From a virus, in the IMG/VR virus record IMGVR_UViG_3300010397_000063, positions 1 to 41,327 of that record: a stretch of 41,327 bases of DNA; one strand, written 5' to 3'. The notes under the pieces were generated by a model, which did not search any database, was not told where the DNA came from, and saw nothing but the letters and a program-made list of their open reading frames with translations. Made by a program: the position numbers and the translations under genes. This document shows positions 6,077 through 28,153 of the stretch, one piece after another. Position 1 is the first letter of the stretch. Each line of letters begins with the position of its first letter.

Positions 6077-6802
6077 ATGTTCAGCTCTGACAACGTGAAG
6101 ATGTATCTGATGGATTCTTACCCAACCGTGGATGGTGAAAAGCGCCTGATTCAGTTGCGCTGCTATGTCAATCCGATTGATTACGAGCTCACGTCCGAAG
6201 TCGATCAGGAGCTCGCGCGCACGCTGTTCCACCTGGTTGGCCAGGAATGGATGCCGCGGCCGCTGTTGCAGAAAGCCACGTTCAACACGAATCTCCCGCC
6301 GTATGCGCTGAACTTCTGCCGGGATCCGGAGCACGGCAACCATCATGTTCACATTCCAGTAGTGAAGATCTCGAAGCTGGAGGCCGGGAAGGTGACGCCC
6401 GAGTCGAACGCATGGGCGCTGATGTTCACACTGAGTTTCGAGAAGAACGATCCGAAGTGGTTGAATGAATTCGCGGATCTACTGCATGAGCACTTCTACG
6501 GCAGCTTTGTGGAGTTACAGCCGAGCCTATTCGACGAACAGGACCCGGTAATGGATCTGCTGTGCCGGTTGTGTGATGCGCCGAATCCGGAGTTCGCGAC
6601 GACGGATGGCAAGTTTGCCTATTGCGCGAAGTGCTCAGTGAATAAGGAACGTGGGGAGGAATTGCGGCGGATCCGCGACACGGCTACTGCTGAAGCGATC
6701 GCGCGAGATGAAAACAATGAAGAAGCGCCGCGCAGAGATCCGCTGCTGGGCGGCGCAGATATCAATGCAAGGAATCGAAGAAAAGGAAGGAACTCACAAT
6801 GA
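6077..6802 (+). CDS. Hypothetical zinc-binding protein (241 aa)
   Basis: ATG at 6077 is chosen because the eight-G run is at ribosome-site distance; an upstream in-frame extension would overlap ParB-like 2 coding. The product begins MFSSDNVKMYLMDSYPTVDG and has a mixed alpha/beta core. A CRLC...YCAKC pair near residues 155-185 is probably a zinc knuckle, and the charged tail ends KGRNSQ. No family is recognised. It belongs to the ParB-HerA-ParB operon; its stop overlaps the next start (ATGA at 6799-6802). Confidence 0.75.
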   Translation: MFSSDNVKMYLMDSYPTVDGEKRLIQLRCYVNPIDYELTSEVDQELARTLFHLVGQEWMPRPLLQKATFNTNLPPYALNFCRDPEHGNHHVHIPVVKISKLEAGKVTPESNAWALMFTLSFEKNDPKWLNEFADLLHEHFYGSFVELQPSLFDEQDPVMDLLCRLCDAPNPEFATTDGKFAYCAKCSVNKERGEELRRIRDTATAEAIARDENNEEAPRRDPLLGGADINARNRRKGRNSQ

Positions 6803-8730: not shown

Positions 8731-9384
8731 ATGACAAGATTCCTGCTGTTGATATTACTTCTCATGAGTGTCACTTCCTTATATGCACAAGCCGACCTCA
8801 GCCTAGTGAGTCATCCTTGGCACGTGTGTGTTGACGTCGACAACGGCTCCGCCTTTTTGCCGAACGTCAACGTGTCGGGCCATCTCCAATTGGCCGGTGC
8901 TCCGAATGCCTCCCAGATTCGTTTTGGTCCGAATGTGGATCTGCAGGCGAACACATCGAACAGCGGCCCGACATTGGCGACCAACAAGGGACCGATGCTA
9001 ACGACACTCTTTCGACGTGAAACATTCGCGGCGCCTGGAGCGCTCGCCTATCTCAAGGCGGAAGGATTGAATACAGACGGCGGCTCATATTCGCCGGTAT
9101 GGATCGCATTCAGTACTCGCAACAACACCGCGGGTCAAGAAAGCGGATACTTCGATTTCATGTATCAAACGAACGGTGGGCTCCTTCAGCATCCTTTATA
9201 TGTCGGTGATCTCGGTGAGGGCTTTCCCTATCACGTCGTTATTACCGATTACATGCTGGTTCAAGCGCCGGCGCAGTTCAATCAGGTCGTAACGGTGAAG
9301 GAATTGAAGATCGGGAATACGACGCTTACGGAAGACGACATAAAGAAGCTGCTCAGTCTCGCTGGGCAGCTGACAAGTAATTGA
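8731..9384 (+). CDS. Secreted/exported protein, paralogue B (217 aa)
   Basis: ATG 8731 is chosen because GGGAGAG lies upstream and the product then starts with a clean signal peptide (MTRFLLLILLLMSVTSLYAQ; cleavage predicted near YAQ-AD). From about residue 45 it aligns along its whole length with paralogue A (6799-7566), including NTSN-GPT-ATN-GP, LTTLFRRE, SGYF-FMYQ and GDLGEGFPY. It lacks about 40 residues of paralogue A's N-terminal mature region. The pair suggests gene duplication around the DUF5131 gene. Function is unknown. Confidence 0.85.
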   Translation: MTRFLLLILLLMSVTSLYAQADLSLVSHPWHVCVDVDNGSAFLPNVNVSGHLQLAGAPNASQIRFGPNVDLQANTSNSGPTLATNKGPMLTTLFRRETFAAPGALAYLKAEGLNTDGGSYSPVWIAFSTRNNTAGQESGYFDFMYQTNGGLLQHPLYVGDLGEGFPYHVVITDYMLVQAPAQFNQVVTVKELKIGNTTLTEDDIKKLLSLAGQLTSN

Positions 9385-13464: not shown

Positions 13465-13905
13465 TTACTGACTCGCTGGAATCGTGACCAAACAATCAAA
13501 ATTAAGTACACCCGGATTCACGCCGGCGGCTGAATAGTTGTTAAAGCGAATCGCGATTACGTTGTCTGCGAAGACATCTGCAGTAATGCACGTATTCGCT
13601 GGCGGCGATGGTTCGCAGTGGACCTGCACGAAGCTGGCCTTCGGTACAAACACTCCGCCTATCGTGAATATGATTGCTAGAGATGCGCTACTCTGGGCGG
13701 CCACGAGCCCGAACGTCAGCGGACCGGTCACAACAACCTGCTGACCGACTTTCATCAGAGAATTGAACCAATCCAGCCACGGCTTGTTCTGTTTCATATC
13801 CAGATAGCCGACGATCTGATTGTGAGTGTTCTTCACCGCCAGCTTCGATTCAGCCGGTGGTTTCAATTTCAATAAAGTCAGAACTCCCGTAATTCCCAAA
13901 CTCAT
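13465..13905 (-). CDS. Hypothetical structural-operon protein (146 aa)
   Basis: Begins MSLGITGVLTLLKLKPPAES and is then a beta-rich protein with two hydrophobic strands (VVVTGPLTFGLVAAQSS, ASLAIIFTIGGVFVP) and a Cys-containing C-terminal half. No signal peptide is evident. It overlaps the gp10-like gene end by four bases (ATGA). It could be a small virion accessory protein; no family is recognised. Confidence 0.65.
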   Translation of the reverse strand: MSLGITGVLTLLKLKPPAESKLAVKNTHNQIVGYLDMKQNKPWLDWFNSLMKVGQQVVVTGPLTFGLVAAQSSASLAIIFTIGGVFVPKASFVQVHCEPSPPANTCITADVFADNVIAIRFNNYSAAGVNPGVLNFDCLVTIPASQ

Positions 13906-15551
13906 GATGCGAGCGCCTCCGCTTCAAGCCAGCCGATCGTTAAAGCCAACTTGCAAGGCTCATCGCCGTTGATGTTATAGACGCGATCGCGCGCGGCGCC
14001 GAGCCGGTCCCAGAAGACTTCCACGTCTTCACCCGAGCGTCCCAGGCTTCGCGAAAGCTCCTGGTTGAAACTCTTCGCCCCATCGTCGGAGTATTTCATT
14101 CGAATCTGAGGATCGGTGCCCCATTCGAAAAAGCCGAGCGATTGCATAACTGCTGGTGTTGGGTATGGAATCAAAGGCGTATATGGCGTCACGTCGTAGA
14201 TAGCTTGCAGGACGAGTGCCTGATCGGCCGTTACGTCCCCACCGGCTACCGCCGCGGCGAGAGCCGCAACGAAGGTTGCATAGTCCATGCTGTAATTGTT
14301 CAACCACAGCGGAGAACTGAGCCCGACGCCGGTCTCCGCGCCGATTTCCAGCCGGTCATAGACCACGCGCTTGTTTTCCTGAAGGATGTGCGGGCACTGC
14401 CGCTCCCATCGTTGCGGGAATCCATAGTCGGTGTAGTTATTCAGGTCCAGCTCATACAGCCAGCCGTTTGCGTAATCGCCGGTGAGGATCTTTCCAAATG
14501 CCGAAACGATCGTGTTCGAACGGTGCCGGTGATATTGGCCCATCTTGAAGTCCCAGTGCAGCACTTCATACCACTCGGCTTTTCCGGTTGCGTCCATTAC
14601 CGTCGAATTTAATTCCCACGACGCATCGGCGGCCGGAAACACAATTCGGTACTTCTCGTGGCCGTTCTGCTGATAAGCCATGCCGATGGCGTCTGCAGTG
14701 CCGAAAGTCTTTTCATATTCGCGGATGTGATTTTCTAGAGCGTGATCGCTGACGCGTCGAACCGAGTAACCGTCGCCCCGGTAGACGACGCCTTCGCCGT
14801 TGAGGTTACGCCCAAGCCAGAAGCGATAATTGCCGACCTGGGCAAGACTGCGAGGGGCCTTAATCCCGTAAGGAATCACGGCGTTCTGCTGTGGATCAAA
14901 AGGCGCATTGGGATTCGTTCCCACCAGGAACGGCTGGGTGATGCGATTCCCGTACAGGTACAGCACCTGATTCTGAACATTCAGCGCGAGAAGTGCATTT
15001 GCGGAGGCCTCCGCATCCTGAACGTCGGCAGGATCCCAGGTGACACCATCGTCTCGGTTGAAGAAGAACTGCGACCCGACTCCCACGATGAATTCGGCCA
15101 GCGCGACGAAATAGTTATCGATGAAAGCAATGTCGATCGGCGTGAATGTGACTGCCGGCGTCGTCAGCACTCCGCTGAGCCGGTACAACGTCTTTGCCGA
15201 AACGATCATCAGCGTCGTTTCGCTGGCTGCCATAACCACCGGAAGGCCGTCATTCGCGAGCGGGCCGTAGGTCGCATTGAGCGTATAGACCCCAGCCGCA
15301 AATGTGATGTCATACAGCGTGTTATCGATCACCACAAAAACATGATCGTTTAATTCATAAGAACCACGGCAGACGGAAAGAGCGGCATTGGGTTGGATTG
15401 CTGGAGTCAATCCAGGCGTTTTATACATCACAAACGAATTGATGCCGTCACCCGATTCCACGACTTCCCGGTAGACGTTAATCGACCGCTGACAATCCGC
15501 CTTACGCGAAAACGGGATGTAGCCGCAGCCGAGTAGTTCTTTAAAGTCCAT
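13902..15551 (-). CDS. P22 gp10-like tail hub/packaged-DNA stabilisation protein (549 aa)
   Basis: ATG 15551 is chosen because it overlaps the tailspike stop as TAATG and gives MDFKELLGCGYIPFSRKADC, a typical N-terminus for this family; an in-frame start 18 nt upstream is less likely. Landmarks are NVYREVVESG near the N-terminus, repeated beta-blade-like stretches (FWLGRNLNGEGVVYRGDGYS), MAYQQNGHEKYRI, GDYANGWLYELDLNNYTD, and the tail FNQELSRSLGRSGEDVEVFW. P22 gp10 forms the hexameric hub below the portal/gp4 rings. Position next to the tailspike supports this. Confidence 0.82.
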   Translation of the reverse strand: MDFKELLGCGYIPFSRKADCQRSINVYREVVESGDGINSFVMYKTPGLTPAIQPNAALSVCRGSYELNDHVFVVIDNTLYDITFAAGVYTLNATYGPLANDGLPVVMAASETTLMIVSAKTLYRLSGVLTTPAVTFTPIDIAFIDNYFVALAEFIVGVGSQFFFNRDDGVTWDPADVQDAEASANALLALNVQNQVLYLYGNRITQPFLVGTNPNAPFDPQQNAVIPYGIKAPRSLAQVGNYRFWLGRNLNGEGVVYRGDGYSVRRVSDHALENHIREYEKTFGTADAIGMAYQQNGHEKYRIVFPAADASWELNSTVMDATGKAEWYEVLHWDFKMGQYHRHRSNTIVSAFGKILTGDYANGWLYELDLNNYTDYGFPQRWERQCPHILQENKRVVYDRLEIGAETGVGLSSPLWLNNYSMDYATFVAALAAAVAGGDVTADQALVLQAIYDVTPYTPLIPYPTPAVMQSLGFFEWGTDPQIRMKYSDDGAKSFNQELSRSLGRSGEDVEVFWDRLGAARDRVYNINGDEPCKLALTIGWLEAEALAS

Positions 15552-17794
15552 TAGTGAACAATTTCCCAATCGACGTCTGCGTCATCAGCGGCACTGCTCG
15601 AGTCGATAGTAAAACTAGTGCCAGCGACGACAGTGCGCGCGACTAGCTCGCCCGCGGCGCCAACAAAAGAACGATGCGTAAGAAAGATCTGGTCCCGATT
15701 ATCGTTAAACAGGATTTCCGCCGTATTGACAACGACGGTGCCGGCAACCATCGTCGCCCGCCCTTGAATAGGCCCAGTCGTGAAGCTGTTACCACGCCCA
15801 AAGTTTGTCGTGTAGCTTGAGAACAGATTTCCGTTACTGGTATTGCCGATGAAGTTGTTATCCAAGACTCTGCAGCCATTGCCCGTGACGTTCACGGCTC
15901 GCGTTGTTCCGCTGACGCGCATCCCGGTGATCTTGCAGTTGCTGCCAGTGATATCGACGCCGAATCCGGTAGCCGTTTTGACCTCGCCTCCGGTTACCGA
16001 CACGTCGTCTCCTCGCCAGTCGATCGCTGTTCCCGTGATCCCAAGTAGCGTGTTGCCAGTGACCGCTCCTCCGGATGGCAATGTCGCCACAATTCCTCGG
16101 TTGCCGACAGTGTCGCAGGTGTTCTCTGAAATGGACGGGCTTGTGTTCGCTGCGTTCAGGTAAATGCACTCCGAGGAAACGTTCGTGAATGTGTTCCCTG
16201 TAACTTTGATCGTCGTGCCCGTGGAGACTGCGTCCATGTAGAATCCGCGCTGGATCAAGGTGCCTACATTGGCTGCCACTACTGATTTTGTGGACGGGTT
16301 TCTAAACCGAACTGCCGCCTGCGTGATATTCCTGCAGCTGTTTGCCGTGAAGGTCGAGCTGCGTGGGCCTACGGCAACAATGCAATCGCGGCCGGATGTG
16401 TCGATCTCGTTTGCGGAAACGACATTGCCGTCGCTGATATTGGAGTTGTCTCCGTTGATCGAAATACCGCCGACGGGAAGCGTCCCGTCCGATTGTTGTT
16501 TCGCGACATCATAAAGAACGTTATTAGCGGCGACCGACCGATAGGCGCCTTGCAGATAGATCCCCGTCCCCGCCGTGTTTGTAATTCGATTCCGAGTCAC
16601 GACCGCATTCGTAAATGAGCCAGGACTCGAAAAGGCATAGACGTTGATCGCATATCCGGAGCAGTTCGTACATGCGCCGGTGGTGTGCATCTGATTGTTT
16701 TGATCGATGTCGTTTCCGCTGACTTCGCAATAGTTGCAGTTGTAGAGGCTGACGCTGATTGGCGTGGTCGATCCGCTGCCGCCGATTGTGTTGTTTAAGA
16801 CTCGGATATTCGTCGTAACGTTCAGCGTGGTTTCGCCGCTAACGATGTCATAGGCACCCTGAGTCGGAGTACCAACGATACCGTTGCCGTGGATGTAGTT
16901 CCTTTCAATAACAACATCGCTGCAGCTTTCCAATTCGATCGATGCCAGGTGCCCCCCGGAAAGAGTAGCCGCACCGCTCATGTCGTTGTCATGAATCTGA
17001 ATGCGGTTCGACGTGTCGCAGCTCGTCTGAGTCCGGCCCCCGGTGAACTTCAGATGATCAATTTCAATATCGGAGGAATTAGTGAATGTAATTCCCGTCG
17101 CACTTCCCGTGAAGGTGAGCGTCGCCGTCTTGTCTCCGCAGTCATGAATGCGAATCTTGGAGGCCGCGCTAATCGATTGAGTGACGCTGACGGTGTAGGT
17201 GGCCCCACAGAGGATCAGGTCGACGGGCTTTGTGACGCCGCTGAAGACGTTCTGCGCAATCGTCTGCGTTCCTTGGATGCCGGTGGCGTCTGCGACTCCA
17301 CCGGTGGAAGGAAGAGCGGCAATGCAGGCCGCGATCTTCGCGCCGGCGTTCGCGCCGACATACCGCGAACAAAGAGCAGTGCCGTTCCAGGTCGGCAAGA
17401 AAGCCAGATCATACACACCATCGCGCTGCCAAATCTGGCTTCCAACCGTCGTTCCATTGCAGGTATTCCCAGTGCCAGGCCCATACAGAGTGACCCGATA
17501 GGGGCCGCCGCCCTGAATGTAAATCGCAGTGCTCGCCCCGCCACCTGTTTGAGGAATCCCGAGCGCGCTCAGCGTGACCGGATTCGGAAGAACGGAACTC
17601 AGTGCCGCATCGGAATATACGTCATAACGGATGCTTGTGCCCGATTGCTGAAAGCACAGTTTTCCATTTGCCGCCGCTCCACCGCTCGCATTCTGAAACT
17701 GGGGAGGAAGTGCCGGCAAAAGGGCACCGTTAGTCTGAGCGAATGCCGGGATACTGAAGAGAATCGAGACCGCCAGTAAAAGACAACGCTTCAT
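15551..17794 (-). CDS. Beta-helix tailspike with N-terminal signal peptide (747 aa)
   Basis: ATG 17794 starts MKRCLLLAVSILFSIPAFAQ, a textbook Sec signal peptide with cleavage after AFA; a GTG seven codons upstream would only extend it. The next segment (GKLCFQQSGTSIRYDVYSDA, then IYIQGGGPYRVTLYG) matches the virion-binding N-terminal domain of many phage tail fibres. Residues about 150-680 are parallel beta-helix rungs rich in Asn, Ser and Gly (NSSDIEIDHLKFTGG, VIERNYIHGNGI, VTRNRITNTAGTGIYLQG). The C-terminal cap contains SFTIDSSSAADDADVDWEI, also common in fibre tips. Likely role: binding or degrading surface polysaccharide. A secretion signal on a tailspike is odd (see findings). Confidence 0.88.
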   Translation of the reverse strand: MKRCLLLAVSILFSIPAFAQTNGALLPALPPQFQNASGGAAANGKLCFQQSGTSIRYDVYSDAALSSVLPNPVTLSALGIPQTGGGASTAIYIQGGGPYRVTLYGPGTGNTCNGTTVGSQIWQRDGVYDLAFLPTWNGTALCSRYVGANAGAKIAACIAALPSTGGVADATGIQGTQTIAQNVFSGVTKPVDLILCGATYTVSVTQSISAASKIRIHDCGDKTATLTFTGSATGITFTNSSDIEIDHLKFTGGRTQTSCDTSNRIQIHDNDMSGAATLSGGHLASIELESCSDVVIERNYIHGNGIVGTPTQGAYDIVSGETTLNVTTNIRVLNNTIGGSGSTTPISVSLYNCNYCEVSGNDIDQNNQMHTTGACTNCSGYAINVYAFSSPGSFTNAVVTRNRITNTAGTGIYLQGAYRSVAANNVLYDVAKQQSDGTLPVGGISINGDNSNISDGNVVSANEIDTSGRDCIVAVGPRSSTFTANSCRNITQAAVRFRNPSTKSVVAANVGTLIQRGFYMDAVSTGTTIKVTGNTFTNVSSECIYLNAANTSPSISENTCDTVGNRGIVATLPSGGAVTGNTLLGITGTAIDWRGDDVSVTGGEVKTATGFGVDITGSNCKITGMRVSGTTRAVNVTGNGCRVLDNNFIGNTSNGNLFSSYTTNFGRGNSFTTGPIQGRATMVAGTVVVNTAEILFNDNRDQIFLTHRSFVGAAGELVARTVVAGTSFTIDSSSAADDADVDWEIVH

Positions 17795-17842
17795 GTCGTG
17801 ATCCGTTGTCCCCACCGGCCAGAATGGGGAAGAGTTTAAAAG

Positions 17843-18097
17843 TTAGTTCTGAGGAAAGAGATGTACCGGCTGATCCGAGATCAACCTCAAAACGATATTT
17901 GCGCCGATCATTACCGGAGCTGCGAATTTCTGTGGCAGCACGCCCGAAAGCGTAAGGGCGAGTCCGGCGACATTGCCCCAAAAGGTTTTACTGAGAAACA
18001 AATGTTTCGAGTCCATCGAATCCACTTCCTTTCTGATCTCCTCGTACTGTCCGAGGGCTTTATTGAGAGTCAAAATGTCTTTAATCTTGCGGAACAT
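17843..18097 (-). CDS. Small membrane-associated protein, possible lysis accessory (84 aa)
   Basis: A charged N-terminal helix (IKDILTLNKALGQYEEIRKE) is followed by a hydrophobic segment from WGNVAGLALTLSGVLP to APVMIGANIVLRLI, possibly one or two membrane passes. It overlaps the upstream gene by 17 nt and lies downstream of the lytic transglycosylase. This composition fits holin-like or release proteins, but no family signature is visible. Confidence 0.65.
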   Translation of the reverse strand: MFRKIKDILTLNKALGQYEEIRKEVDSMDSKHLFLSKTFWGNVAGLALTLSGVLPQKFAAPVMIGANIVLRLISDQPVHLFPQN

Positions 18098-18305
18098 CTT
18101 CCGTTTTCCCTGCTTCCGGAACCTTGACGTTCAAGGTGGCCATCGCCTGTCGTAAATTCATCGCGAGAGCGTGAGTAGCACCGTAGGCCCAGCGCGCCCA
18201 GTAATTCGCGTTCTCTGGAAGCGGCGGCATGCTGCCTGCAACCGCCGCGAAAACCATGTAGGCGATAATCACTTCGATTCCGTGCGAATTGACCCAGTGA
18301 ATCAT
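18081..18305 (-). CDS. Putative holin-like membrane protein (74 aa)
   Basis: It starts with ATG overlapping the transglycosylase stop (ATGA at 18302-18305). A hydrophobic segment, IEVIIAYMVFAAVAGSMPPL, is followed by NYWARWAYGATHALAMNLRQ, an amphipathic helix, and an acidic tail. The size, the membrane helix and the position directly after the endolysin suggest a holin or its partner. Confidence 0.65.
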   Translation of the reverse strand: MIHWVNSHGIEVIIAYMVFAAVAGSMPPLPENANYWARWAYGATHALAMNLRQAMATLNVKVPEAGKTEDVPQD

Positions 18306-18766
18306 GGTCTCGGCATCACTCCTGAATTGAGATAGGCGTAGTCTTTGTAGTGCGCCATTACGAGATCCGGATAGTTCGCATTCCCGCCGCCGTTGTACTG
18401 AAGCAGGGCGGCGGGAACGTCGCCGTTGTTTTTATCCAGGCATCGCTTGAGTTTTCGGCATCCATAGATGACAGCATTCAGCGGCTCGAGCAGCTCGGTC
18501 AGAAACTTTCCGTCAAAACCGAACTCGCGCGCCGTCTGTCCCATAATCTGCATGAGTCCGAACGATGTGGCTCGCATGGTTTTCTCGGTCTGTGACAGCC
18601 CCGTCATGCTTTCGATGTAGCGCGAATAGAAACCGGGCTCGTATCGCACCGCGAATTGCTGCCAACCATCAGATTCGTGAGCGCAGACTGCGCATACTAG
18701 TGCCGGATCGAGTCCTTGATTCAGGGCGGTCGCTATCGCCGCCTTCTCGAGCTCATCTCGCGTCAC
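18302..18766 (-). CDS. Lytic transglycosylase-type endolysin (154 aa)
   Basis: SLT-like lysozyme fold: catalytic Glu31 in AHESDGW, then SFGLMQIMGQTAREFGF (the S-x-G-xx-Q motif) and the LQYNGGG motif near residue 122. Lytic transglycosylases cleave the MurNAc-GlcNAc bond of peptidoglycan. There is no signal peptide or signal-anchor helix, so it would need a holin to reach the wall; two membrane proteins follow immediately. The GTG start overlaps the previous stop (GTGA at 18763-18766). Confidence 0.9.
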   Translation of the reverse strand: MTRDELEKAAIATALNQGLDPALVCAVCAHESDGWQQFAVRYEPGFYSRYIESMTGLSQTEKTMRATSFGLMQIMGQTAREFGFDGKFLTELLEPLNAVIYGCRKLKRCLDKNNGDVPAALLQYNGGGNANYPDLVMAHYKDYAYLNSGVMPRP

Positions 18767-18924
18767 GATTCTTTTAAGTCCTCATAGCGCTTCTTTGCGA
18801 ACTTCTCGGCACTATCCATGTACCCCTTCAGGATTGGTTCCGCGTTGATGATGTTCTGATGATCCTGCCGCAGTCGGTCGAAATCCTCAGAGAATGCTTT
18901 CAGTTCTTCCGGATTAGCTTTCAT
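18763..18924 (-). CDS. Small helical protein (53 aa)
   Basis: A short frame coupled by GTGA overlap to the transglycosylase gene. The product is a charged, probably coiled helix (KANPEELKAFSEDFDRLRQD ... YMDSAEKFAKKRYEDLKES). No membrane segment. The function is unknown; a lysis regulator or spanin-like cytoplasmic partner is possible. Strict chaining with neighbours is the main evidence. Confidence 0.6.
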   Translation of the reverse strand: MKANPEELKAFSEDFDRLRQDHQNIINAEPILKGYMDSAEKFAKKRYEDLKES

Positions 18925-19006
18925 GACTCGTTTTCCTCAATCGATCGCGCTTGCAGATTGGACAGTTGCCTAAAATAGCCAGCCTGCCGTTCGGATACTG
19001 AAACAT
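18914..19006 (-). CDS. Possible micro-protein with CPIC motif (30 aa)
   Basis: ATG 19006 has AGGTGG 9 nt upstream and the frame overlaps the next gene by 11 nt. The product is MFQYPNGRLAILGNCPICKR plus a basic tail, with a single Cys pair. The open frame extends upstream to about 19114 but would overlap the membrane-protein gene. Weakly supported; it fills the only gap in the lysis cassette. Confidence 0.35.
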   Translation of the reverse strand: MFQYPNGRLAILGNCPICKRDRLRKTSHES

Positions 19007-19052
19007 CAGCCAAAGCCACCTGTAGAAATGAAACAGACGGCAGGCGACACTC

Positions 19053-19292
19053 TTAACCTTCTCGCTTATTGAGCCTGTATTCGATGTTCCTAACCCGGTC
19101 TTCATATCCCTCAACCAACGTTGTTACTCGCGTTGTTGCTAACGTGACACCGTTGAGAGCTTCCGTGACTTTTACGTCACGTTCCGCGTCATGCTTCGAA
19201 TGCTGGTACATCACATATCCAATTAGAAACAGAGCCAATGCAATCAGCGGATCGAAGTGCATCAGTTTGGCAAGTTCGATGATGTCTCCCAT
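19053..19292 (-). CDS. Single-pass membrane protein with coiled-coil tail (79 aa)
   Basis: The N-terminal segment ELAKLMHFDPLIALALFLIG forms a membrane helix followed by a charged coiled coil (KHDAERDVKVTEALNGVT ... VEGYEDRVRNIEYRLNK). This layout is common for small phage proteins at the start of lysis cassettes (holin- or Rz/spanin-like). A GGGAGGAGG ribosome site lies upstream. No lipobox is present. Confidence 0.7.
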   Translation of the reverse strand: MGDIIELAKLMHFDPLIALALFLIGYVMYQHSKHDAERDVKVTEALNGVTLATTRVTTLVEGYEDRVRNIEYRLNKREG

Positions 19293-19313
19293 TTCTGTCT
19301 GAGCCTCCTCCCT

Positions 19314-20768
19314 CTATCGAACCGTATCTGTGATGGAAAACGTCAAACCGGTGCCGCCGATCGTGCCAGCGATCACCACGTCATATCGAATACGGTCGCC
19401 GCAGACACCATGCCGAACCGTACCAGCGGCCAGCGTCCTAGTTCCTTCATTCGATCCACCTGTATCTGTCTTCATCGTGGCTGTATTGACCGACACCACG
19501 CCCGGACCTGCTGTCGTGATGGTTTGAGGCTGTAGCTCACAGTTGATGGCGGCAATAAACTGTTTTGCGCCTGTCGTGGCGATTTGGGTGAAATGGACAA
19601 CATCCCAACAGGCGGGTAGAGAGTCGCACATCTGGACATACATATCGTACGTTTCATTGGCCGAGTCCCTCTCAGCCGCAGTCACGTTAAAGTCAAGGAT
19701 GTGCTGCTTAAATCCGGCCACACCGGTTTTCGCTGTACCGGTCGTAGTCGATGTGGCATTGCCGGACGCCTGAAGGGTAAACGATCCGCCTGCTACATAA
19801 ACATTCGCCGCGGCAAAGTGAGGATCGGTGGACGTTGCTGATCCTGATTTCTGCGCGTCGAATGTGGTTCCGTTGTAGACGTAAGTACCGCTGGTCGCGA
19901 TTCCAGCCGATTGTCCAGTTGCACCGGTTGTTACATCTCTTTGTCGGTTGAAAACGGTCGAGCTTGTGCCCTGCAACATCGGGCCGTCAGCCGGAATGAG
20001 GTCGCCGTTCCGACCATCGGTGTTATAGGTCAGATTTCCAGTAGGAGCCCATGTGTTGGTTGTCTGCCAAAGGCTGGGAACGACCGTCAGTACTCCGCCC
20101 GAAACTGCCGACCCGTTTCCATTACCAACCGTGAGATTGACGGCGTTAGTACCATCTGATGCCCCGATACGAACCGGATTTCCGGATAGCGCTGCTCCAG
20201 AAGCCGCCGCGCCGCCCACTGCCAAAAGGCCGTTGACACCGCCAGTCACAACAGTATTGCCGCCGACCTGAGCGAGGTTTTGGCTTGCCGTCACCGCGCC
20301 AGAACTGGACAAGGTTGTTGGGGGATTGAGGCCGGATTGAATTGTGATATTCGCCGCACCGCTCGTGAATGCGGAGGTGCGCACGCGAATTCCAATCAGC
20401 CCGGACGTTGAGAATTGCCAACTGCCAGTACCGGTTGTTGAGGTCACGCCAGTTCCAACTGTGAGCGGCACGCCGGTAATCGCAGCCCAATTACTCCCGT
20501 CAACAGTTCCTTCAAACTGGTTTGTCGCGCTATAGGTTCCGCTGATCGCAACCGCGGCGCCGCCGTTATTGGGCGAAACAGTCGCAATGACGCAGGAACC
20601 GCTGGTAGAACAATCGGTAGACGCTGCCGTGTTGAATCCTCGCACGGCCGGATTTACCTGAGCCATGAGTCGCGTTGCAGCAATCGCCATCAGGAAGCAC
20701 GCAATGGCAATCCGTAAACAATTCCGTCGAAAGCTGGCCATTTGTTTGGACCTCATAGAGAAGTTCAT
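19314..20768 (-). CDS. Signal-peptide-bearing structural-operon protein (484 aa)
   Basis: The start overlaps the gp4-like stop (ATGA). A basic n-region is followed by a hydrophobic core and Ala-Gln cleavage site (IAIACFLMAIAATRLMAQ, around residues 20-37). The mature part is Ser/Thr/Gly/Asn-rich beta sequence with FEGTVDGSNWAAITGVP (carbohydrate-binding-like or Ig-like), then a second domain with TYDMYVQMCDSLPACWDVVH and paired cysteines. The position between the head-tail adaptor and lysis genes suggests a head fibre, decoration or tail accessory protein. Function unknown. Confidence 0.8.
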   Translation of the reverse strand: MNFSMRSKQMASFRRNCLRIAIACFLMAIAATRLMAQVNPAVRGFNTAASTDCSTSGSCVIATVSPNNGGAAVAISGTYSATNQFEGTVDGSNWAAITGVPLTVGTGVTSTTGTGSWQFSTSGLIGIRVRTSAFTSGAANITIQSGLNPPTTLSSSGAVTASQNLAQVGGNTVVTGGVNGLLAVGGAAASGAALSGNPVRIGASDGTNAVNLTVGNGNGSAVSGGVLTVVPSLWQTTNTWAPTGNLTYNTDGRNGDLIPADGPMLQGTSSTVFNRQRDVTTGATGQSAGIATSGTYVYNGTTFDAQKSGSATSTDPHFAAANVYVAGGSFTLQASGNATSTTTGTAKTGVAGFKQHILDFNVTAAERDSANETYDMYVQMCDSLPACWDVVHFTQIATTGAKQFIAAINCELQPQTITTAGPGVVSVNTATMKTDTGGSNEGTRTLAAGTVRHGVCGDRIRYDVVIAGTIGGTGLTFSITDTVR

Positions 20769-21547
20769 CCTGGGAGCCTCGTGAGCCAGTTGAAGCCGCT
20801 GGCTTTGCTGCGATCGGCGCCGCCCACTGTGTTTATCTTCGGAGGCGGCACGTTCACGCTTTGGAGGTCGGCGCGGGCCAGTCGCGCCTGCCGTTGAAGT
20901 TCAGTGAGATCGGTACGTTTCGGAAATGAAAGCCAGAGGCGCTCCGCCAGGCTCAAGATCACTGCTTCTTCATAACCATCTGGCAGCGCGATCGGCGTCG
21001 TGATGTCGCTGATGCTGATTTGCGCCATCTGGTTCCACCACGACAAATCCAGTTGATAATTCGTCGCGGTCGGGAATGCGGGCCATGGGCGAATGGTTCC
21101 GTTCAGCGTTCCACCGCCAGGCCGAATGTAATAGATCGTGTTCGGGAATGTCGCGGACAGCTGCGGAATCGAAATCTGCTGCCACTGATCCTGATTGATC
21201 ACGGCGAGCTGCAGCTGAACATTGGGCCCGCTGAGCCCGGTCATCACCAGCTGCACGCCTTCGCGGAGATTCGCGGGCGCATTACCGGATGAAACAACAA
21301 AATCCGGAGTCGGCACGTTCGTCGCTGCGCCGATCGTATAGGAGTCTTTCGAAGTGGTGAAGGTGAATGCTTCTTCCTGAATGAAACTCGCGAAACGTTT
21401 CCGTGTGTTCCACCGACTGACCAAAGAGTTGTATCGACGGACACACAAATCGGTATCTTCGGCTTTGGGAGAGGTCTGAGCCGCTCCCAAAACACCGAGA
21501 GTTTCTAAAGCACCTCGAAAGATATCGACCGGCGCAACGAGAGGCAT
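20765..21547 (-). CDS. P22 gp4-like head-tail adaptor / tail accessory factor (260 aa)
   Basis: Family-like landmarks: helical N-terminus DIFRGALETLGVLGAAQTSP, then LCVRRYNSLVSRWNTRKRF, FTFTTSKDSYTIG, IYYIRPGGGTLNG, and LPDGYEEAVILSLAERLWLS near the C-terminus. In P22, gp4 binds under the portal and starts tail assembly. It follows the coat gene region and precedes the tail genes, as expected. TAATG overlap with the upstream gene. Confidence 0.8.
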   Translation of the reverse strand: MPLVAPVDIFRGALETLGVLGAAQTSPKAEDTDLCVRRYNSLVSRWNTRKRFASFIQEEAFTFTTSKDSYTIGAATNVPTPDFVVSSGNAPANLREGVQLVMTGLSGPNVQLQLAVINQDQWQQISIPQLSATFPNTIYYIRPGGGTLNGTIRPWPAFPTATNYQLDLSWWNQMAQISISDITTPIALPDGYEEAVILSLAERLWLSFPKRTDLTELQRQARLARADLQSVNVPPPKINTVGGADRSKASGFNWLTRLPG

Positions 21548-22008
21548 TACGCTGCGGGGACCTCATCGGCTTTTTTCTTCTTCTTGCCGCCGCCCTTCGA
21601 CTTCGACGCGGCCTGTTGCAGTAAGAGGTTCTCAAGTCGCGCGAGTCGTTCCTTCGTCTCCGCGAGCTCGGCCTGGGTGTCGGCTTGAGCCTTCGGACCA
21701 AATGAAGCTGCTGCGACCTGCTCCGCCGGCGCCTTGGCTTTGTGATTGTCGAGATGTTCGAAGGAGTAGCCCAGCGCCTCATATTCGGCCTGTTCCTTCT
21801 TGTTGTTCACCTTGACATTCGGGTGTTCCGGATGGGACATGAGTTTCGGCCATTCCTGATGCGTGTACTCGGTCACATACCCCGGACCGCCGTCCTCGAC
21901 AGGCTTTGTCCACTTGTCGAGTTCTTTCTGGTTGTGGCAATAAATCACGTGGCCGTTCTTGTAGACGGGAACCACGGGATTCATGCCGGTGAATCGCTCT
22001 GCTGCCAT
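21547..22008 (-). CDS. Head-region protein with Lys-rich coiled tail (153 aa)
   Basis: ATG 22008 has AGGAG 7 nt upstream, which fixes the start; the open frame continues about 170 nt further into the neighbour's end but without support. The N-terminal domain (MNPVVPVYKNGHVIYCHNQK, then WPKLMSHPEHPNVKVNNK) is followed by a coiled coil (AELAETKERLARLENLLLQQ) and a Lys cluster (GGGKKKKKAD). No family is recognised; possibly a head completion or head-to-scaffold protein. Confidence 0.7.
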   Translation of the reverse strand: MAAERFTGMNPVVPVYKNGHVIYCHNQKELDKWTKPVEDGGPGYVTEYTHQEWPKLMSHPEHPNVKVNNKKEQAEYEALGYSFEHLDNHKAKAPAEQVAAASFGPKAQADTQAELAETKERLARLENLLLQQAASKSKGGGKKKKKADEVPAA

Positions 22009-22027
22009 TTCAAATCTCCTTAAAGAT

Positions 22028-22047
22028 GGGCGAGCCGAAGCCCGCCC
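22028..22047 (-). other. Intergenic hairpin after the signal-peptide protein gene
   Basis: GGGCG and CGCCC arms enclose a GC-rich loop in the 46-bp gap between the genes ending at 22055 and starting at 22008. It has no U-tract, so it is more likely an RNA-processing, stability or pausing element than a terminator. Confidence 0.35.
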
Positions 22048-22054
22048 CTCGAAA

Positions 22055-23119
22055 TTAGTACAGACAGCCGATAGGGCCGATGTCTGCCGTGAAGGTTGTC
22101 GGTGCCGTAATGCTGGCCGCAACGGTTCCGAAGGTACTGGATGGATTCGCCGTGAACAGGTTATTGAACGTGCTAGCAGCAACCGTTCGGATACCGTTCA
22201 CGTCGGCCGTGTCGTCCTGCAGCGAGAAGTAATACAGCGCTGGGCCAACGACGATGCGCGTGGCTGTGAATGCAATTTGCTGGAATGCGTCATTGCCCGT
22301 CGCAGCAGTGCCGGCCGTGGCCGTATTCGCGATCAACTTGCCGGCAGAATCGTACAGGATGAAGATCTTCTTCGATGCACCATCGACAGCCGATCCGTTG
22401 AGGTTGGAAAGGCCTGTTGCGAATACCGTGTTCGGCACAAAGAGGCTTGCCGTATATAAGACGTTATTCGCAGTCGTTGTGCTTGTTCCGAAGGAGCCAT
22501 AAGCTACCGAACCAATCGGAACATTACATGCCTGAATCAGAGGAAGAGACCCCGGGTAATCCGGCAGAGTTCCCGGCACCCAGCTACCGCCCAGACAGTC
22601 CACCGTATTGCCGTAAGAACTGCCAGCACCGGTTGGGCTGGCAGTGACGAAGAACACCGGCAGAATTGCATTCTGCGTGCGCGTACAGGCACCCACTGGC
22701 AGGGTTCCAACGAAGGTTGCTCCATTCACACTGGCGCCGACGGCAGGTGAACCGACGACCGTGCTGATGGTTCCGGTATTCGGATTGAAGGTCCCGCTGT
22801 ATCCGCAGAACACCTGCTTACCGGATGCGTGCGCTGTGGCGAGTCCTTGCTTTGCACGTAGCACGGTTAAGGTCGTACTGGAGATCGAGCGGATCTGAAC
22901 CAATTCCTGATCGATCAAGCAATAGGACTGCAGCGAAGTTGTCGACGCAGTGATACCCGTCGCGCTCGCAACAACCATGGTGCCTGCACCGGCGGTACCG
23001 GGGGCGGTCATGGCGGTTGAAAGCGTGGTGCGCGTCGGAGAGGACTGAGCCTGGAGTGCTGGAGTGAAGACAACCGCCAGCACCACCATCAAGAGAAGCA
23101 TTTTTACCAATCGAGTCAT
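22055..23119 (-). CDS. Signal-peptide-bearing putative decoration protein (354 aa)
   Basis: ATG 23119 is preceded by AAGGAG at 8 nt. Residues 1-24 are a signal peptide (TRLVKMLLLMVVLAVVF, then TPALQAQ). The mature protein begins SSPTRTTLSTAMTA, with an early segment resembling phage fibre head-binding sequences (YCLIDQELVQIRSISSTTLT). The rest is beta-rich Ser/Thr/Ala/Gly with several Cys and ends FTADIGPIGCLY. It lies directly downstream of the coat protein, the usual place for decoration proteins. I infer a capsid-surface or fibre protein. Confidence 0.8.
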   Translation of the reverse strand: MTRLVKMLLLMVVLAVVFTPALQAQSSPTRTTLSTAMTAPGTAGAGTMVVASATGITASTTSLQSYCLIDQELVQIRSISSTTLTVLRAKQGLATAHASGKQVFCGYSGTFNPNTGTISTVVGSPAVGASVNGATFVGTLPVGACTRTQNAILPVFFVTASPTGAGSSYGNTVDCLGGSWVPGTLPDYPGSLPLIQACNVPIGSVAYGSFGTSTTTANNVLYTASLFVPNTVFATGLSNLNGSAVDGASKKIFILYDSAGKLIANTATAGTAATGNDAFQQIAFTATRIVVGPALYYFSLQDDTADVNGIRTVAASTFNNLFTANPSSTFGTVAASITAPTTFTADIGPIGCLY

Positions 23120-23183: not shown

Positions 23184-24446
23184 TTACTGCTGTGATCCGA
23201 TCAGAACCGCGCAGCGGTCGCCGTAGGCGTTGCCGAAGCCGATCAGCGAATCAAAGCGGTTGATCCAACGACGTTCAACCGGATCGAATGCGCGAACGAA
23301 CGCGATCGCAATTCCGGTGTCGTCGTCCTGATGCTGAGCTGCGATTTCCACCGAAGATTCCTTCGGGTTGGCAATCTTTGCGCCCGCCATGAAGAACGCC
23401 TGGTCATTCAGGGCCGCACCGAGAACGCCCGTCTTCGCGGAACCGTCAACGATCGTGGTTCCTGGCCAGAACGTGATCAGCGCCTGATCTGCCGCGAGCG
23501 CATCGACGTTCTGATAAGGGGAGCCAGGTCCGATGATCGATGGGTAAATCTGCAGCGTTGCCGCTGAAGCCACACCCGTCGTCGCCGCGGTGATGATGAA
23601 GTGCTTCACGCGGTTGGTCGACAGGAGCGTCATCGGGTTGACGTTGTTCACATTCGCAATGGAGATGTGATCGCCAGCCTTGAACGTGTCGCCAGTGCCG
23701 CAGGCCACCAGCAGTGAAGAGCCGGACTGGCCCGCGCCGGAAACCTTAAAATTGGCCTGAGTCGCGATGATTCCCGTCGTGTGGCTGCGGAGCGACATGG
23801 ATGTAAACCAATCGGCGTTCGCGTACTGGCCGATGTATCCACGCTTCCATGCACGAGACAGCTCAGAGCCCGGATTGAAGTAGGCAATCGAGGCCGCGAT
23901 CGCGCTTTCCTGCATCTGCGGCGTAAGGAACATGCCGTACTTCTCCGACGCATCCAACCCGGCGTTTTCCCACATGCGGGTCGTGGCGGCCGAGTAGGTC
24001 TGATAGCTCGTCGGCGTCGTTCCGAGCGCACCCACGACGTTGTTCGTGTTGAGGTACACAAACAGCGAGAAGCGGGATTCCGCTTCCTGGGCCATCTTGC
24101 GCATGGCCGGCGTGAGGTACTGTTTCGAAATCTCCGCTTCCGAGCGCTCGAGCTTCAGCGCGCGTTCCAGAGAATCCCACTCGAAACCAATCTGCATCCA
24201 CTGGTCGAGAGTGACCGTGGTGTTGATGCGCTGAATCGCTTGTGGGTTATAGGTCTGACCGTCGGTCACGGTGAAGAGTTGTGGATACTTCACACGAACG
24301 GACTCGCCGACAGCGAATTCGCGATCGAATTCTTTTTCGTAATCCCAATTGGCGTAACCGCACATCGCAAGCATGTTCGTCAACAGACGAAGACACTCGG
24401 GCGCTACCCAATCGCTAAATACATAAGATCCAGGTACACCAGGCAT
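23184..24446 (-). CDS. Major capsid protein, P22 coat-like (420 aa)
   Basis: Begins with VFSDWVAPECLRLLTNMLAM and DYEKEFDREFAVGESVRVKY, typical of the P22-type HK97-fold coat. A middle segment (residues about 230-300) contains TFKAGDHISIANVNN and later KHFIITAATTGVAS, matching the inserted I-domain region of P22 coat protein. The C-terminus includes VEIAAQHQDDDTGIAIAF and RCAVLIGS, as in this family. AGGAG lies 8 nt before the ATG. It follows the scaffold gene, as in P22-like phages. Confidence 0.9.
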   Translation of the reverse strand: MPGVPGSYVFSDWVAPECLRLLTNMLAMCGYANWDYEKEFDREFAVGESVRVKYPQLFTVTDGQTYNPQAIQRINTTVTLDQWMQIGFEWDSLERALKLERSEAEISKQYLTPAMRKMAQEAESRFSLFVYLNTNNVVGALGTTPTSYQTYSAATTRMWENAGLDASEKYGMFLTPQMQESAIAASIAYFNPGSELSRAWKRGYIGQYANADWFTSMSLRSHTTGIIATQANFKVSGAGQSGSSLLVACGTGDTFKAGDHISIANVNNVNPMTLLSTNRVKHFIITAATTGVASAATLQIYPSIIGPGSPYQNVDALAADQALITFWPGTTIVDGSAKTGVLGAALNDQAFFMAGAKIANPKESSVEIAAQHQDDDTGIAIAFVRAFDPVERRWINRFDSLIGFGNAYGDRCAVLIGSQQ

Positions 24447-24492: not shown

Positions 24493-25650
24493 TCAGTTCG
24501 CTTTGCGCTCCCGCAGCTCTTTCTCGTTCATCAAGCGCTTGTAGGTTTTGAAATCTTTGTTCTTCAAAGCCTGGGCGATCGGATCGAGAACAGGGGCGGC
24601 TTCCACTTCGGTATTCACTTCGGCGGAAGGTTTAGGCGTTGAGCGAATGACTTCCTTCAACGGTTTCGGTTGAGGAGCAGCCTTGGTGGACACGGACAGT
24701 TTGGCGAGTTCGGCTTTGGCTAAAGCCAGCTTTTCCCCGTAGAGCATGGCGCGGTCAGGATCGGATTTGACCCACTTCAAAAACTCCGCCGGTGATTCGT
24801 ATTTCTCTTCACCTTCGATGAAAGTGAGTTCCGCAATGCGCGTGGCCAATTCCAGATTCTTCGCGACGGCGTAGGAACGTAACGCACCGTCCGGCATGCT
24901 CTGAATCGCTGTCATCGTGGCGTAAGACAGCGGAACATTGCCGTTGAAGACAACCTGGTCATAGTCCTTGTGCACCTTGCGGGCATCGTCAATCTGAGAC
25001 GTCCATTTCTGGTTGAACTGCTGAGCTTCAGACTTTTGCTTTTCTCCGTTGAATCGATTGTCGAGACGACGATCCACCCACTCAGAGTCAGCCTTCTGCC
25101 AATCTTTGACCGCTTTGTTGAAGTCTTTCGGATCATCAAAGTTATTGATATCCGGGAATTCGGGACGCGGATCATCGCTGGCTACGGGCTTGGCTTCTGT
25201 TTTCGTCGTGACCGGGGCCGATGGCCGGTTAGCGGCTCTCTCACGTTCATAAACGTCCAGCCTTGCCTTCAACGCGATATTTTCGCGTTCAGCGGCATCC
25301 GCTCTCTTCGTGACTTCTCTGAAATTGCGGTCCTGTTTGGTTCGTGTCGTTGGTTGCTGCTCGGGTTTCGCGGTGCCTGGGGCCGCCTCAGTTTCCGCCG
25401 CTTCCGCGGCAGCAGGTTGAGTTTCTTCAGAGGATGCTTCCTCAGAACTCGCCTTGGGAGTCATCAGCTTTTCGGCGGCGTCCACGTCGCCCGTCATCCG
25501 GTAATGGTCTTTCGCTTTACCGTGCAAAGCATTGATGCGCTCACTTCTGGATTTGGTTGGAGCCTGGACTTCGGAGACTTCTGCGGTCTCGGGCGATACG
25601 TTGTCAATGTGTGTTTCGACAGCTTCAACGACTGCGGCTTCCGGTCCCAC
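24493..25650 (-). CDS. Scaffolding protein (385 aa)
   Basis: An acidic, disordered N-terminal third (SSEEASSEETQPAAAEAAET) leads to long charged helices (NFREVTKRADAAERENIALK, then QKWTSQIDDARKVHKDYDQV) and a basic C-terminal helix (KNKDFKTYKRLMNEKELRER) suited to coat binding. Position between portal and coat, composition and size match P22 gp8-type scaffolds. The GTG start overlaps the portal TAG by one base. Confidence 0.85.
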   Translation of the reverse strand: MGPEAAVVEAVETHIDNVSPETAEVSEVQAPTKSRSERINALHGKAKDHYRMTGDVDAAEKLMTPKASSEEASSEETQPAAAEAAETEAAPGTAKPEQQPTTRTKQDRNFREVTKRADAAERENIALKARLDVYERERAANRPSAPVTTKTEAKPVASDDPRPEFPDINNFDDPKDFNKAVKDWQKADSEWVDRRLDNRFNGEKQKSEAQQFNQKWTSQIDDARKVHKDYDQVVFNGNVPLSYATMTAIQSMPDGALRSYAVAKNLELATRIAELTFIEGEEKYESPAEFLKWVKSDPDRAMLYGEKLALAKAELAKLSVSTKAAPQPKPLKEVIRSTPKPSAEVNTEVEAAPVLDPIAQALKNKDFKTYKRLMNEKELRERKAN

Positions 25651-27905
25651 TATTCGGCTCCTTGATTTTGTGCAACGAGCGCGGGTTGCTGCTGTTGATC
25701 GGCCTGTTTCTGGGCGAGATCCGCTTCATGCGCTCGGTCTAATGCGTTTTCGGTGGATTGATGATCGAGCTGGAATTTGGCGCTGAGCACATCTGCGATG
25801 TGTTTGATTCGCGCGACTTCCGCATCGATCGATTCGATACTTTCTTTGACGCTTGCGTTGATGGTCGCCACTTCAACCTTCGCGGCATTGTCCATCTCAT
25901 GAATTTCTTTTTGCAGGGTGAGTTCGGTTGTCTTCGCCTGCTTTTCCATCAACAACTGATCGCGCTCTTGCTCGAGCTGCTTCGCGTGAGCATTGAGCGC
26001 TTGCATGGCCTGCTGGGCCTGCGCAACCATCTGCTGCACCATCGCCGGCGACATTTCCTGCTTATCACCATTGCGAGCCTGCTGCATTTGCGGAGGCTGC
26101 ATCGCTTCGATCATCTTCGCCAGGTCATCACCGTACACACCGAGACCCTTCATGCGGATGAGATCCGGCAGCACGGCCATCAGGATCATCGGATCCTTCA
26201 CAGCACCCATGAGCGATTCGGCAAAGTCGGACTGTTCTTCCTGAAGCGACTGGTAGTACTTCGCGTTCGAAATCACGACTTCATGCCGGCCCATTTGCTG
26301 GTAATGGTTGTTGCCGATCTCCTGCGTCGAATAATTGCCCTTCACATCGCGCAGGCCAATTTCGCGCTGCGTGTTTTCGATCTTGGGCAAGAGCCGATTA
26401 ATAATCCGGTACTGTCGGAGCTGAGCCATTCGCAGGGAGTTGTGATAATGGTAGGTCGCAACGTTCATGTCTTCCTGAAGTTGCTGGAGGGCTTTGCCAG
26501 ATTTGGAAGCACGGTCCTTGCGCTCGGTCGAAGACATCCCGAGTGCATTCTGGATGGAAAGCAGGATGGAGACTTTCAACTCCAACAGCGCGGAAATCTG
26601 AGGTTCGCTGCGAACCAACTGCGGCAGTGGCAGCGGCTTTTCGGAGCCGTTCTCTTCGGTCGTCGCCTTCGCTTCGGCATAAGCTGCCGGCTCCCGATGC
26701 GCTTTGCGCCAATCGGTTGAGGTGTCGAACTGGCCTTCATATCCAAGCCACAGGAACTTCGGGGTGCGCGCCGCCTCTTCCTGGATCGATGAGATACAGA
26801 GATCATAGAGCAACTGCCCGGTTCGGGCTTTGCGCGTCTGAGAATCAATCACGCGCTTTCCGTTCTCAAACTTCACGCGACCGGTGACAACCAAGATCGG
26901 GATTTCTTCGTCTTCCCAGTCAGTCTCCTCGAGAATCTCGATTCCGTTCGTCAGGCATTTCTTCACTTGCGGAACGAATCGTTTGGAATCTCGCAGAATC
27001 GGGAAGGCGCGGCCCTTTTCGTAGCCGATTTCGGCATAGCCATCACCGCTGATAACGACGGCGTTCTTGTTGCGCTTCAGTCCGGGGATCTCTCGGCTGA
27101 GGTCGGGATCTTCATCGCGGGCGTCATACAGTTTCCCGCCGAGCTCAAACATCGACCAGCCTTCAGGCGTGCCATCATCGACAAGTAGCAGGCTTCCACG
27201 CTTCTTGACGACTTCCCAAAATGCTGCAATCTGGACCGTCTTCGAATCAATCCACTTTTGATAACCGGCTTTGCCGATGAAGCCTTCGAAGTCTTGGATC
27301 TTCGCGTTCGGATACTTCTGCTTGAATTCATCGTGCGTAATGCGCGACAGCTTGAACGCGCCACCCATATCGGCCCAGTCGGGCTTCTTGCAGTTCGGAT
27401 CCACAAGCACGGACTTGTTGTCTTGGATCGGCCGGATGCAGACATACCGTTCCCATGAGAACGGACTGCGCCAATCTGTCTCGAGTTCCCAGAAACCGAT
27501 CGAGGAGTTCACGGCGCTTGCGCCGGCGGTCAGATAGGCGTGTTGGCCGTTCTGCTCGTACTCAATCTGCCGGATCCGGTTCTCGACAAACTCGGCCGTC
27601 TTTTCGTCAGCGCCTTCACCTTCGGGCTGGACGTCAATCCCCATCGGATTCATTTCGAGCTGGTTGATCGTGATGTTGTTGAACTGGGTGATCACGTCTT
27701 CATGGAGACAGGGGCGTTCGTTACCAGGTGTCTCGCGGGCCTTGCGTTCTTTCTCTGGCCAGGGGCCGTCCATCGACAGGCACTTCATATCGGCATCGAG
27801 CTCTTCATGCACCCCAGACCAGGCGTCGAAATATCGGTCAAACGTCGACCGGATAGCATCGACTCTGGATTGATCGGCGTTCGGCTTTGGATCCTGCCGG
27901 CTCAT
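25650..27905 (-). CDS. P22-like portal protein (751 aa)
   Basis: ATG 27905 is chosen: AAGGAAG lies about 9 nt upstream and it overlaps the preceding stop (ATGA); the longer open frame has no support. Landmarks include FDRYFDAWSGVHEELDADMK, RPCLHEDVITQFNNITINQL, FWELETDWRSPFSWERYVCI and LGMSSTERKDRASKSGKAL, the last very typical of P22-type portals, where it precedes the barrel. The long Gln/Ala/Lys helical C-terminus (about 600-740) could be a P22-like barrel. It forms the dodecameric DNA gate of the head. Confidence 0.9.
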   Translation of the reverse strand: MSRQDPKPNADQSRVDAIRSTFDRYFDAWSGVHEELDADMKCLSMDGPWPEKERKARETPGNERPCLHEDVITQFNNITINQLEMNPMGIDVQPEGEGADEKTAEFVENRIRQIEYEQNGQHAYLTAGASAVNSSIGFWELETDWRSPFSWERYVCIRPIQDNKSVLVDPNCKKPDWADMGGAFKLSRITHDEFKQKYPNAKIQDFEGFIGKAGYQKWIDSKTVQIAAFWEVVKKRGSLLLVDDGTPEGWSMFELGGKLYDARDEDPDLSREIPGLKRNKNAVVISGDGYAEIGYEKGRAFPILRDSKRFVPQVKKCLTNGIEILEETDWEDEEIPILVVTGRVKFENGKRVIDSQTRKARTGQLLYDLCISSIQEEAARTPKFLWLGYEGQFDTSTDWRKAHREPAAYAEAKATTEENGSEKPLPLPQLVRSEPQISALLELKVSILLSIQNALGMSSTERKDRASKSGKALQQLQEDMNVATYHYHNSLRMAQLRQYRIINRLLPKIENTQREIGLRDVKGNYSTQEIGNNHYQQMGRHEVVISNAKYYQSLQEEQSDFAESLMGAVKDPMILMAVLPDLIRMKGLGVYGDDLAKMIEAMQPPQMQQARNGDKQEMSPAMVQQMVAQAQQAMQALNAHAKQLEQERDQLLMEKQAKTTELTLQKEIHEMDNAAKVEVATINASVKESIESIDAEVARIKHIADVLSAKFQLDHQSTENALDRAHEADLAQKQADQQQQPALVAQNQGAE

Positions 27906-28153
27906 GCGTAACGCTTCCTTACAATGCGACCGAGGACGGGATGTTGCTCTGTGCTGCGCGCGTCGGTGAAATTGTCTTTGCCCCGATGCCAAGAATTGCA
28001 ATGCCGACACCGATAAGCTTCCAAGGGTGAACCGTTGCGATGCCGACCAAGCTTCTTCGCTTCGCGCTCGGTCCGACACTCTTTCCCAGTGATCGCACAG
28101 CGTTTGCCACGCGATCGATTGCCTGGAATGTGAAGGACACGCTTTCGTTTCAT
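27902..28153 (-). CDS. Small zinc-ribbon protein upstream of portal (83 aa)
   Basis: A basic protein with CAITGKEC, then YRCRHCNSWHRGK, giving a C-x6-C...C-x2-C-x3-H pattern. Similar short zinc ribbons ending in C-xx-C-xxxWHxG are common in phage head regions; their role is unknown to me. Both ends are coupled: ATGA overlaps at 28150-28153 and at 27902-27905. Confidence 0.7.
   Translation of the reverse strand: MKRKRVLHIPGNRSRGKRCAITGKECRTEREAKKLGRHRNGSPLEAYRCRHCNSWHRGKDNFTDARSTEQHPVLGRIVRKRYA

Follow-up and report, generated by a model that had tools for sequence, protein, structure and literature searches.

Why should proteins encoded among the head and tail genes of a P22-like phage begin with signal peptides, when the particles of tailed phages are taught to be wholly cytoplasmic assemblies? 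The question arises from the window, the whole stretch of 41,327 bases analysed here (an IMG/VR virus record), whose minus strand carries a late operon in the order portal, scaffold, coat, sp1, a small gene, adaptor, sp2, lysis genes, sp3, head closure/hub and ejection-type genes (Table 1). The matches of the coat (E = 2.5e-20) and the portal (E = 6e-86) satisfy the criterion for a P22-like podovirus late operon. An initial annotation had described signal peptides ending in Ala-Gln on sp1, sp2 and sp3, interleaved with P22-like head and tail genes. Both observations were borne out: the three leaders are present with such ends, and their genes have P22-type coat, portal, adaptor and head closure genes (PF11651, PF16510, PF24175 and phrog_578) as neighbors.

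Table 1. Late-operon features of the window, with the leader-bearing proteins sp1, sp2 and sp3 and their parts.
Feature	Position	Strand	Description
Tail hub / head closure protein	13902..15551	-	Leaderless; phrog_578; its ATG overlaps the sp3 stop
sp3	15551..17794	-	Exported tailspike, 747 aa: leader, P22-type head-binding domain, right-handed beta-helix, K1-lyase_C-type C-terminal domain
sp3 C-terminal domain	15557..15769	-	K1-lyase_C PF24146
sp3 beta-helix region	16118..17104	-	Beta_helix PF13229, NosD PF05048
sp3 head-binding domain	17435..17737	-	Directly behind the leader; Cys47 and Cys112, absent from leaderless relatives
sp3 signal peptide	17738..17794	-	19 aa, AFA^Q
Small membrane protein	17843..18097	-	Holin candidate (inferred assignment)
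Small membrane protein	18080..18305	-	Holin candidate (inferred assignment)
SLT transglycosylase	18302..18766	-	Leaderless; endolysin candidate; between sp2 and sp3
Small single-TM protein	19052..19292	-	Between sp2 and the lysis genes
sp2	19314..20768	-	Exported beta-rich protein, 484 aa; conserved Cys53/Cys59
sp2 signal peptide	20661..20768	-	36 aa counted from the first ATG, LMA^Q
Head-tail adaptor	20765..21547	-	Leaderless; SU10_adaptor PF24175 / phrog_12985
sp1	22055..23119	-	Exported protein, 354 aa, directly after the coat gene
sp1 signal peptide	23048..23119	-	Sec/SPI-like, 24 aa, LQA^Q; AAGGAG ribosome site 8 nt upstream
Major coat protein	23184..24446	-	Leaderless; P22_CoatProtein PF11651
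Scaffolding protein	24493..25650	-	Leaderless; phrog_8865
P22-type portal	25650..28079	-	Leaderless; PF16510; real start probably downstream of the listed GTG

Outside the late operon, a large serine recombinase/integrase (35667-37295, minus strand, phrog_95) suggests that the phage is temperate. On the plus strand, two ParB-like genes flank a gene for a HerA/Zot-like ATPase (1466-3190, 3193-4890 and 4941-6062), a combination unusual for a podovirus of 41 kb. Also on the plus strand, a DUF5131 gene (7577-8641) is flanked by genes for two paralogous proteins (6799-7566 and 8731-9384), which bear leaders, have no known function and contain zero and one Cys, respectively. Two scans of genome contigs found no relatives, and the host was not identified.

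The leaders of sp1, sp2 and sp3 are MTRLVKMLLLMVVLAVVFTPALQA^Q, MNFSMRSKQMASFRRNCLRIAIACFLMAIAATRLMA^Q and MKRCLLLAVSILFSIPAFA^Q, respectively, and each contains a positive n-region, a hydrophobic h-region and a small-x-small cleavage motif as judged by a rule-based predictor. This predictor is a home-made rule set that was tried on seven known E. coli leaders and on shuffled sequences. A score of at least 8.5 was reached by chance in 0.07% of shuffled N-termini of leaderless genes and in 2% of the sequences obtained by shuffling the residues of the leaders themselves. None of 95 leaderless N-termini scored at least 8.5, which is only a consistency check since the same filter had been used to select them. 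In control P22-like isolates, leaders were called in 3 of about 172 genes, one of the three being a fibre-like gene. A lipoprotein (SPII) reading was ruled out, as no lipobox Cys is present at the cleavage site and the residue following the leader is Gln in all three proteins. The twin-arginine motif is absent from sp1 and sp3, and sp2 contains FRRNCLRIA, a poor match.

Such leaders could be gene-call artefacts or chance hydrophobic N-termini, in which case the real proteins would begin downstream and remain cytoplasmic. That an overextended start can mimic a leader is seen in the L013 terminase (TerL, L013:2425-3963), which has a hydrophobic N-terminus resembling a leader, probably due to such a start; it is a likely false positive of the predictor, which gave at least one. 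The initial annotation had nevertheless held that overextended calls do not explain the leaders, two of the starts being fixed by a ribosome site or a stop overlap, and had named true starts downstream and leaderless homologues as observations that would refute it. The positions of start codons and ribosome sites speak against downstream starts. The long start of sp1 is preceded by its ribosome site, and that of sp2 by GAGG at 8 nt, with an overlap with the adaptor gene stop (ATGA); the internal ATGs of sp2 at codons 5 and 10 would each still give a leader. sp3 has no strong ribosome site; no further in-frame ATG occurs until codon 272, and before codon 127 the sole alternative start is a TTG at codon 26, which itself lacks a ribosome site. 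There is thus no plausible shorter protein that retains the N-terminal domain.

Leaderless homologues were not found within the three leader-bearing groups either. From IMG/VR, relatives of both the coat protein and sp1 were retrieved, and sp1 homologues lie directly after the coat gene in seven contigs (L002, L003, L004, L005, L013, L014 and L016). Together with the window, all eight members of the sp1 family bear a leader, as do all three of sp2 (the homologues being L002:3924-4772 and L013:12272-13054). When the full contigs of the relatives were searched with a profile, five proteins with a P22-type head-binding domain were found in addition to sp3 in leader-bearing contigs (two in L004; one each in L005, L013 and L016). 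All six of these spikes, from the five contigs that have such a protein alongside the sp1 gene (the window included), carry a leader. Leaders are retained in homologues with as little as 28-39% identity, and this conservation is stronger evidence than any predictor or shuffle score. Overextended starts were rejected on the basis of start-codon positions and conservation, and cysteine parity (below) does not depend on the choice of start codon; we find the artefact reading scarcely credible. Sec export of sp1, sp2 and sp3, inferred from sequence, is well supported as real, and the cleavage of the leaders is likewise an inference.

In a tree of coat proteins, L016 groups with the coats of isolates despite having an exported sp1 and an exported fibre. 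This position rules out that the leader trait is bound to one coat lineage, and implies that the trait moves, or that it follows the host or the fibres. Neither sp1 nor sp2 had a match in the phage collection searched. Exported genes lie near lysis genes in the window, L005 and L002, as well as in the isolates BcepC6B and PBR31; those of L005 and L002 are located between the adaptor and the lysozyme gene, where L002 has two more leader-bearing proteins. Several other genes in these blocks were recorded. Upstream of its portal gene, L005 encodes a leader-bearing protein of 1131 aa with 26 Cys and no Pfam match (L005:1818-5213), and a multi-pass membrane protein with a TPR-like C-terminus (L005:12377-13597) is inserted between its sp1 and adaptor genes in the structural block. 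The nearest relative, L004, has methyltransferase-like and glycosyltransferase-like genes, as read from sequence, within its structural block (14907-16312).

The body of sp3 is a beta-helix (PF13229, E = 2e-16; PF05048). The 100 residues directly behind its leader constitute a P22-type head-binding domain, detected by phmmer (3e-4) and by a two-sequence profile (1.5e-7); a six-sequence profile matched the Pan3 tailspike (9vyg, E = 4e-13) and the Pam1 head-binding domain (7eeq, E = 6e-12) in the PDB. An AlphaFold model of the head-binding part (pLDDT 76, pTM 0.73) was matched by Foldseek, with a probability of 1.00, to the P22 structures 1lkt, 2vky and 8tvr (the hub-spike complex) and to the equivalents of Sf6, Pam1 and Pan3. 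Eight leaderless relatives, comprising seven isolate or environmental phages (PBR31, P26218, H6/1, ctfPj964, ctn9Y15, DSL-LC05 and PAE2), which have the domain at the protein N-terminus, and the more distant L011, in which the domain lacks Cys, begin where the mature sp3-type protein begins. In the L016 fibre, a head-binding domain is fused to the C-terminal domain seen in the sp1 family, a fusion that connects sp1 with the fibres of the particle. At its N-terminus, sp1 has a domain similar to one of phage minor-tail/tip proteins (E = 5.5e-8 to 8vjh). The predicted structure of sp1 was poor (pLDDT 59) and its fold search weak, and these were left out of the argument. Neither sp1 nor sp2 has a proven particle-binding domain.

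Leaders and cysteine pairs by themselves show only export, so the proteins could have roles away from the particle: at the host surface they might be depolymerases, block receptors or exclude superinfecting phages, or they might be set free as enzyme at burst. The lack of a recognised particle-binding domain in sp2 is in keeping with such a role, and a bacterial tailspike-fold enzyme exported by its owner does exist (WceF, PMC7949094). However, in each exported spike compared the P22-type head-binding domain is complete. Such a domain would have no use away from the particle, and the searches revealed no unexported spike that could serve the particle instead. Specifically, no leaderless head-binding-domain protein was detected in the window or in the leader-bearing contigs, which may be incomplete; a decoy reading, with an exported copy and a second, cytoplasmic spike, was rejected on this basis. 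We regard a purely off-particle function as rather unlikely. The coating of the host surface, one of the options raised by the initial annotation, is not the best fit and is not excluded as an additional role.

The same annotation had proposed that the signals serve as uncleaved anchors. The leaders would then be membrane anchors or delay signals that keep the spikes at the inner membrane until lysis in a SAR-like manner, with the remaining chain in the periplasm. Holin-linked release is a phage strategy known from SAR endolysins, and the geometry of a few leaders also fits a signal anchor (e.g., the long hydrophobic leader of L005:15332). Nearly all leaders, however, have A-x-A^Q-type cleavage sites, and the head-binding domain starts right behind them without a linker, such that an uncleaved helix would press on the docking surface. 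Both features disfavor the anchor option, which we consider improbable.

The cysteine content of the proteins is independent evidence that export is real. Oxidatively folded proteins tend toward even Cys numbers, as reportedly observed by Dutton et al. (2008). The count after the leader is even in 26 of 26 complete leader-bearing late-operon proteins vs. 7 of 18 leaderless structural proteins (p = 4e-6). The 26 comprise the eight members of the sp1 family (6, 8, 4, 4, 6, 4, 6 and 2 Cys), sp2 (6), sp3 (18), BcepC6B gp19 (4), PBR31 orf035 (2) and other exported late proteins (6, 26, 8, 2, 8, 6, 4, 2, 2, 2, 20, 8, 12 and 6). Three proteins were not counted: the spike of L013, which is truncated where its contig ends; the TerL of L013, as a false positive; and the membrane protein of L005 at 12377, which has no Cys. 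The p value is nominal, and a nominal 1e-8 is likewise not strict, since the 26 were chosen for having a leader and belonging to the late operon, and some of them are homologous to one another. Among the leaderless genes of the same contigs, 68 encode Cys, with 29 even and 39 odd counts; a single Cys (odd) is encoded by the gene at 8731-9384, which looks exported but is not part of the late operon.

Cysteines are also gained and lost in pairs. In the sp1 family, Cys145 and Cys175 are found in all eight homologues, Cys67 and Cys105 are both present in the window, L004 and L005 and both missing elsewhere, and Cys198 and Cys352 are gained or lost jointly. Without disulfides it is difficult to account for Cys numbers that change by two at a time among the members of one family; the actual bonds are inferred from these patterns. 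The head-binding domain contains two to four Cys in the six exported spikes and none in the leaderless relatives (6/6 vs. 0/7, p = 6e-4). The cysteine pairs, including one inside the head-binding domain of the exported spikes, suggest selection for the oxidised form. Together with the strong leader scores they argue against two spike populations, in which a cytoplasmic part, arising through slow export or fast folding, would build the particle while the exported part serves otherwise. That P22 tailspikes fold in the cytoplasm and that Sec export competes with folding lend this possibility some support; we judge it very improbable. A remaining caveat is that disulfides could also arise without any export, once lysis has released the proteins into the medium.

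We consider it probable that the spikes and fibres leave the cytoplasm by export, become oxidised in the periplasm and join particles at lysis; there are no virion protein data, and cleavage has not been shown. The support counted comprises the conserved leaders, the intact docking domain right behind the tailspike leader, the paired cysteines, the failure to find a leaderless spike copy and the clustering with lysis genes in several contigs. According to this model, the tailspike and other fibre-like proteins would be made as Sec-exported precursors, and the head, portal, adaptor and hub, which have no leader, would be assembled in the cytoplasm. Signal peptidase I would remove the leader and the spike would fold in the periplasm with disulfide bonds, where cleavage, disulfides and trimerisation are all inferred. 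After the holin/endolysin set has breached the inner membrane and the wall, full particles would encounter the periplasmic spikes, and docking of the P22-type head-binding domain on the hub (also inferred) would complete the particle at or just after lysis. The protein encoded next to sp3 (phrog_578) is the likely docking partner. Export with addition at or after lysis was one of the options of the initial annotation. It fits best because the domain by which the exported tailspike would dock on particles is intact and the searches gave no copy that stays unexported; the choice among the options, like incorporation at lysis, is inferred and not shown. P22 spikes are able to join preformed heads in vitro, which makes late spike addition feasible; P22 particles were reportedly completed in vitro from separate parts by Israel, Anderson and Levine in 1967 (cited in PMC2989905).

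Taken further, we lean toward a phage lineage that builds its particle in two compartments, with heads and hub made in the cytoplasm and disulfide-bonded tailspikes in the periplasm, the two being joined when the envelope ruptures; similar exported fibres in unrelated isolates such as BcepC6B indicate that the route may be widespread and unrecognised. If this is true, infectivity would hinge on the host Sec and disulfide machinery, and receptor-binding proteins would be located in the envelope ahead of the burst, which might influence superinfection and the capsule. Disulfide bonding would also offer a way of making receptor-binding proteins tough. A simple sequence test, a leader and even cysteines ahead of a fibre docking domain, is applicable to all phage genomes. 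The literature searched, which was mainly open-access, yielded no description of tailed-phage spikes or fibres that are exported by Sec.

The closest known proteins are the tailspikes of P22 (gp9), Sf6, Pam1 and Pan3, which share with sp3 the head-binding fold, the beta-helix body, the P22-type coat/portal operon and the adjacent hub gene. P22 tailspikes fold in the cytoplasm. The kin of P22 gp9 start at the head-binding domain without a leader, and the aligned relatives have no Cys there, whereas the sp3 group adds a Sec leader and cysteines. The group therefore does not meet the criterion that a P22-type tailspike is made without an export signal, the leader being found in six of six and absent in the eight leaderless relatives. 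Two proteins of isolated phages resemble sp1-sp3 in other ways. Burkholderia phage BcepC6B gp19 (L031:4001-5074) and Xanthomonas phage PBR31 orf035 (L020:24674-25483), annotated as a tail fibre and a putative structural protein, each have a Sec-like leader, an even Cys number and a gene directly before the holin. They differ in showing no homology to sp1-sp3 in the searches run, and PBR31's own tailspike is leaderless. Their leaders appear to have gone unremarked, no paper noting them having been found in the mainly open-access literature, and the availability of both phages opens the question to bench testing.

Two further systems use export. WceF of Pantoea stewartii is a trimeric glycan enzyme of tailspike (beta-helix) fold that is exported via Tat (PMC7949094). 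It is like sp3 an exported beta-helix, but it is a host biofilm enzyme rather than the product of a phage late gene, and the leaders of sp1 and sp3 have no twin arginines. SAR endolysins and signal-bearing lysins, such as KS10 gp10 (PMC2628397), are likewise phage late proteins that use host export before lysis; they differ in being lysis enzymes and not particle parts, and the endolysin candidate of the window is itself leaderless.
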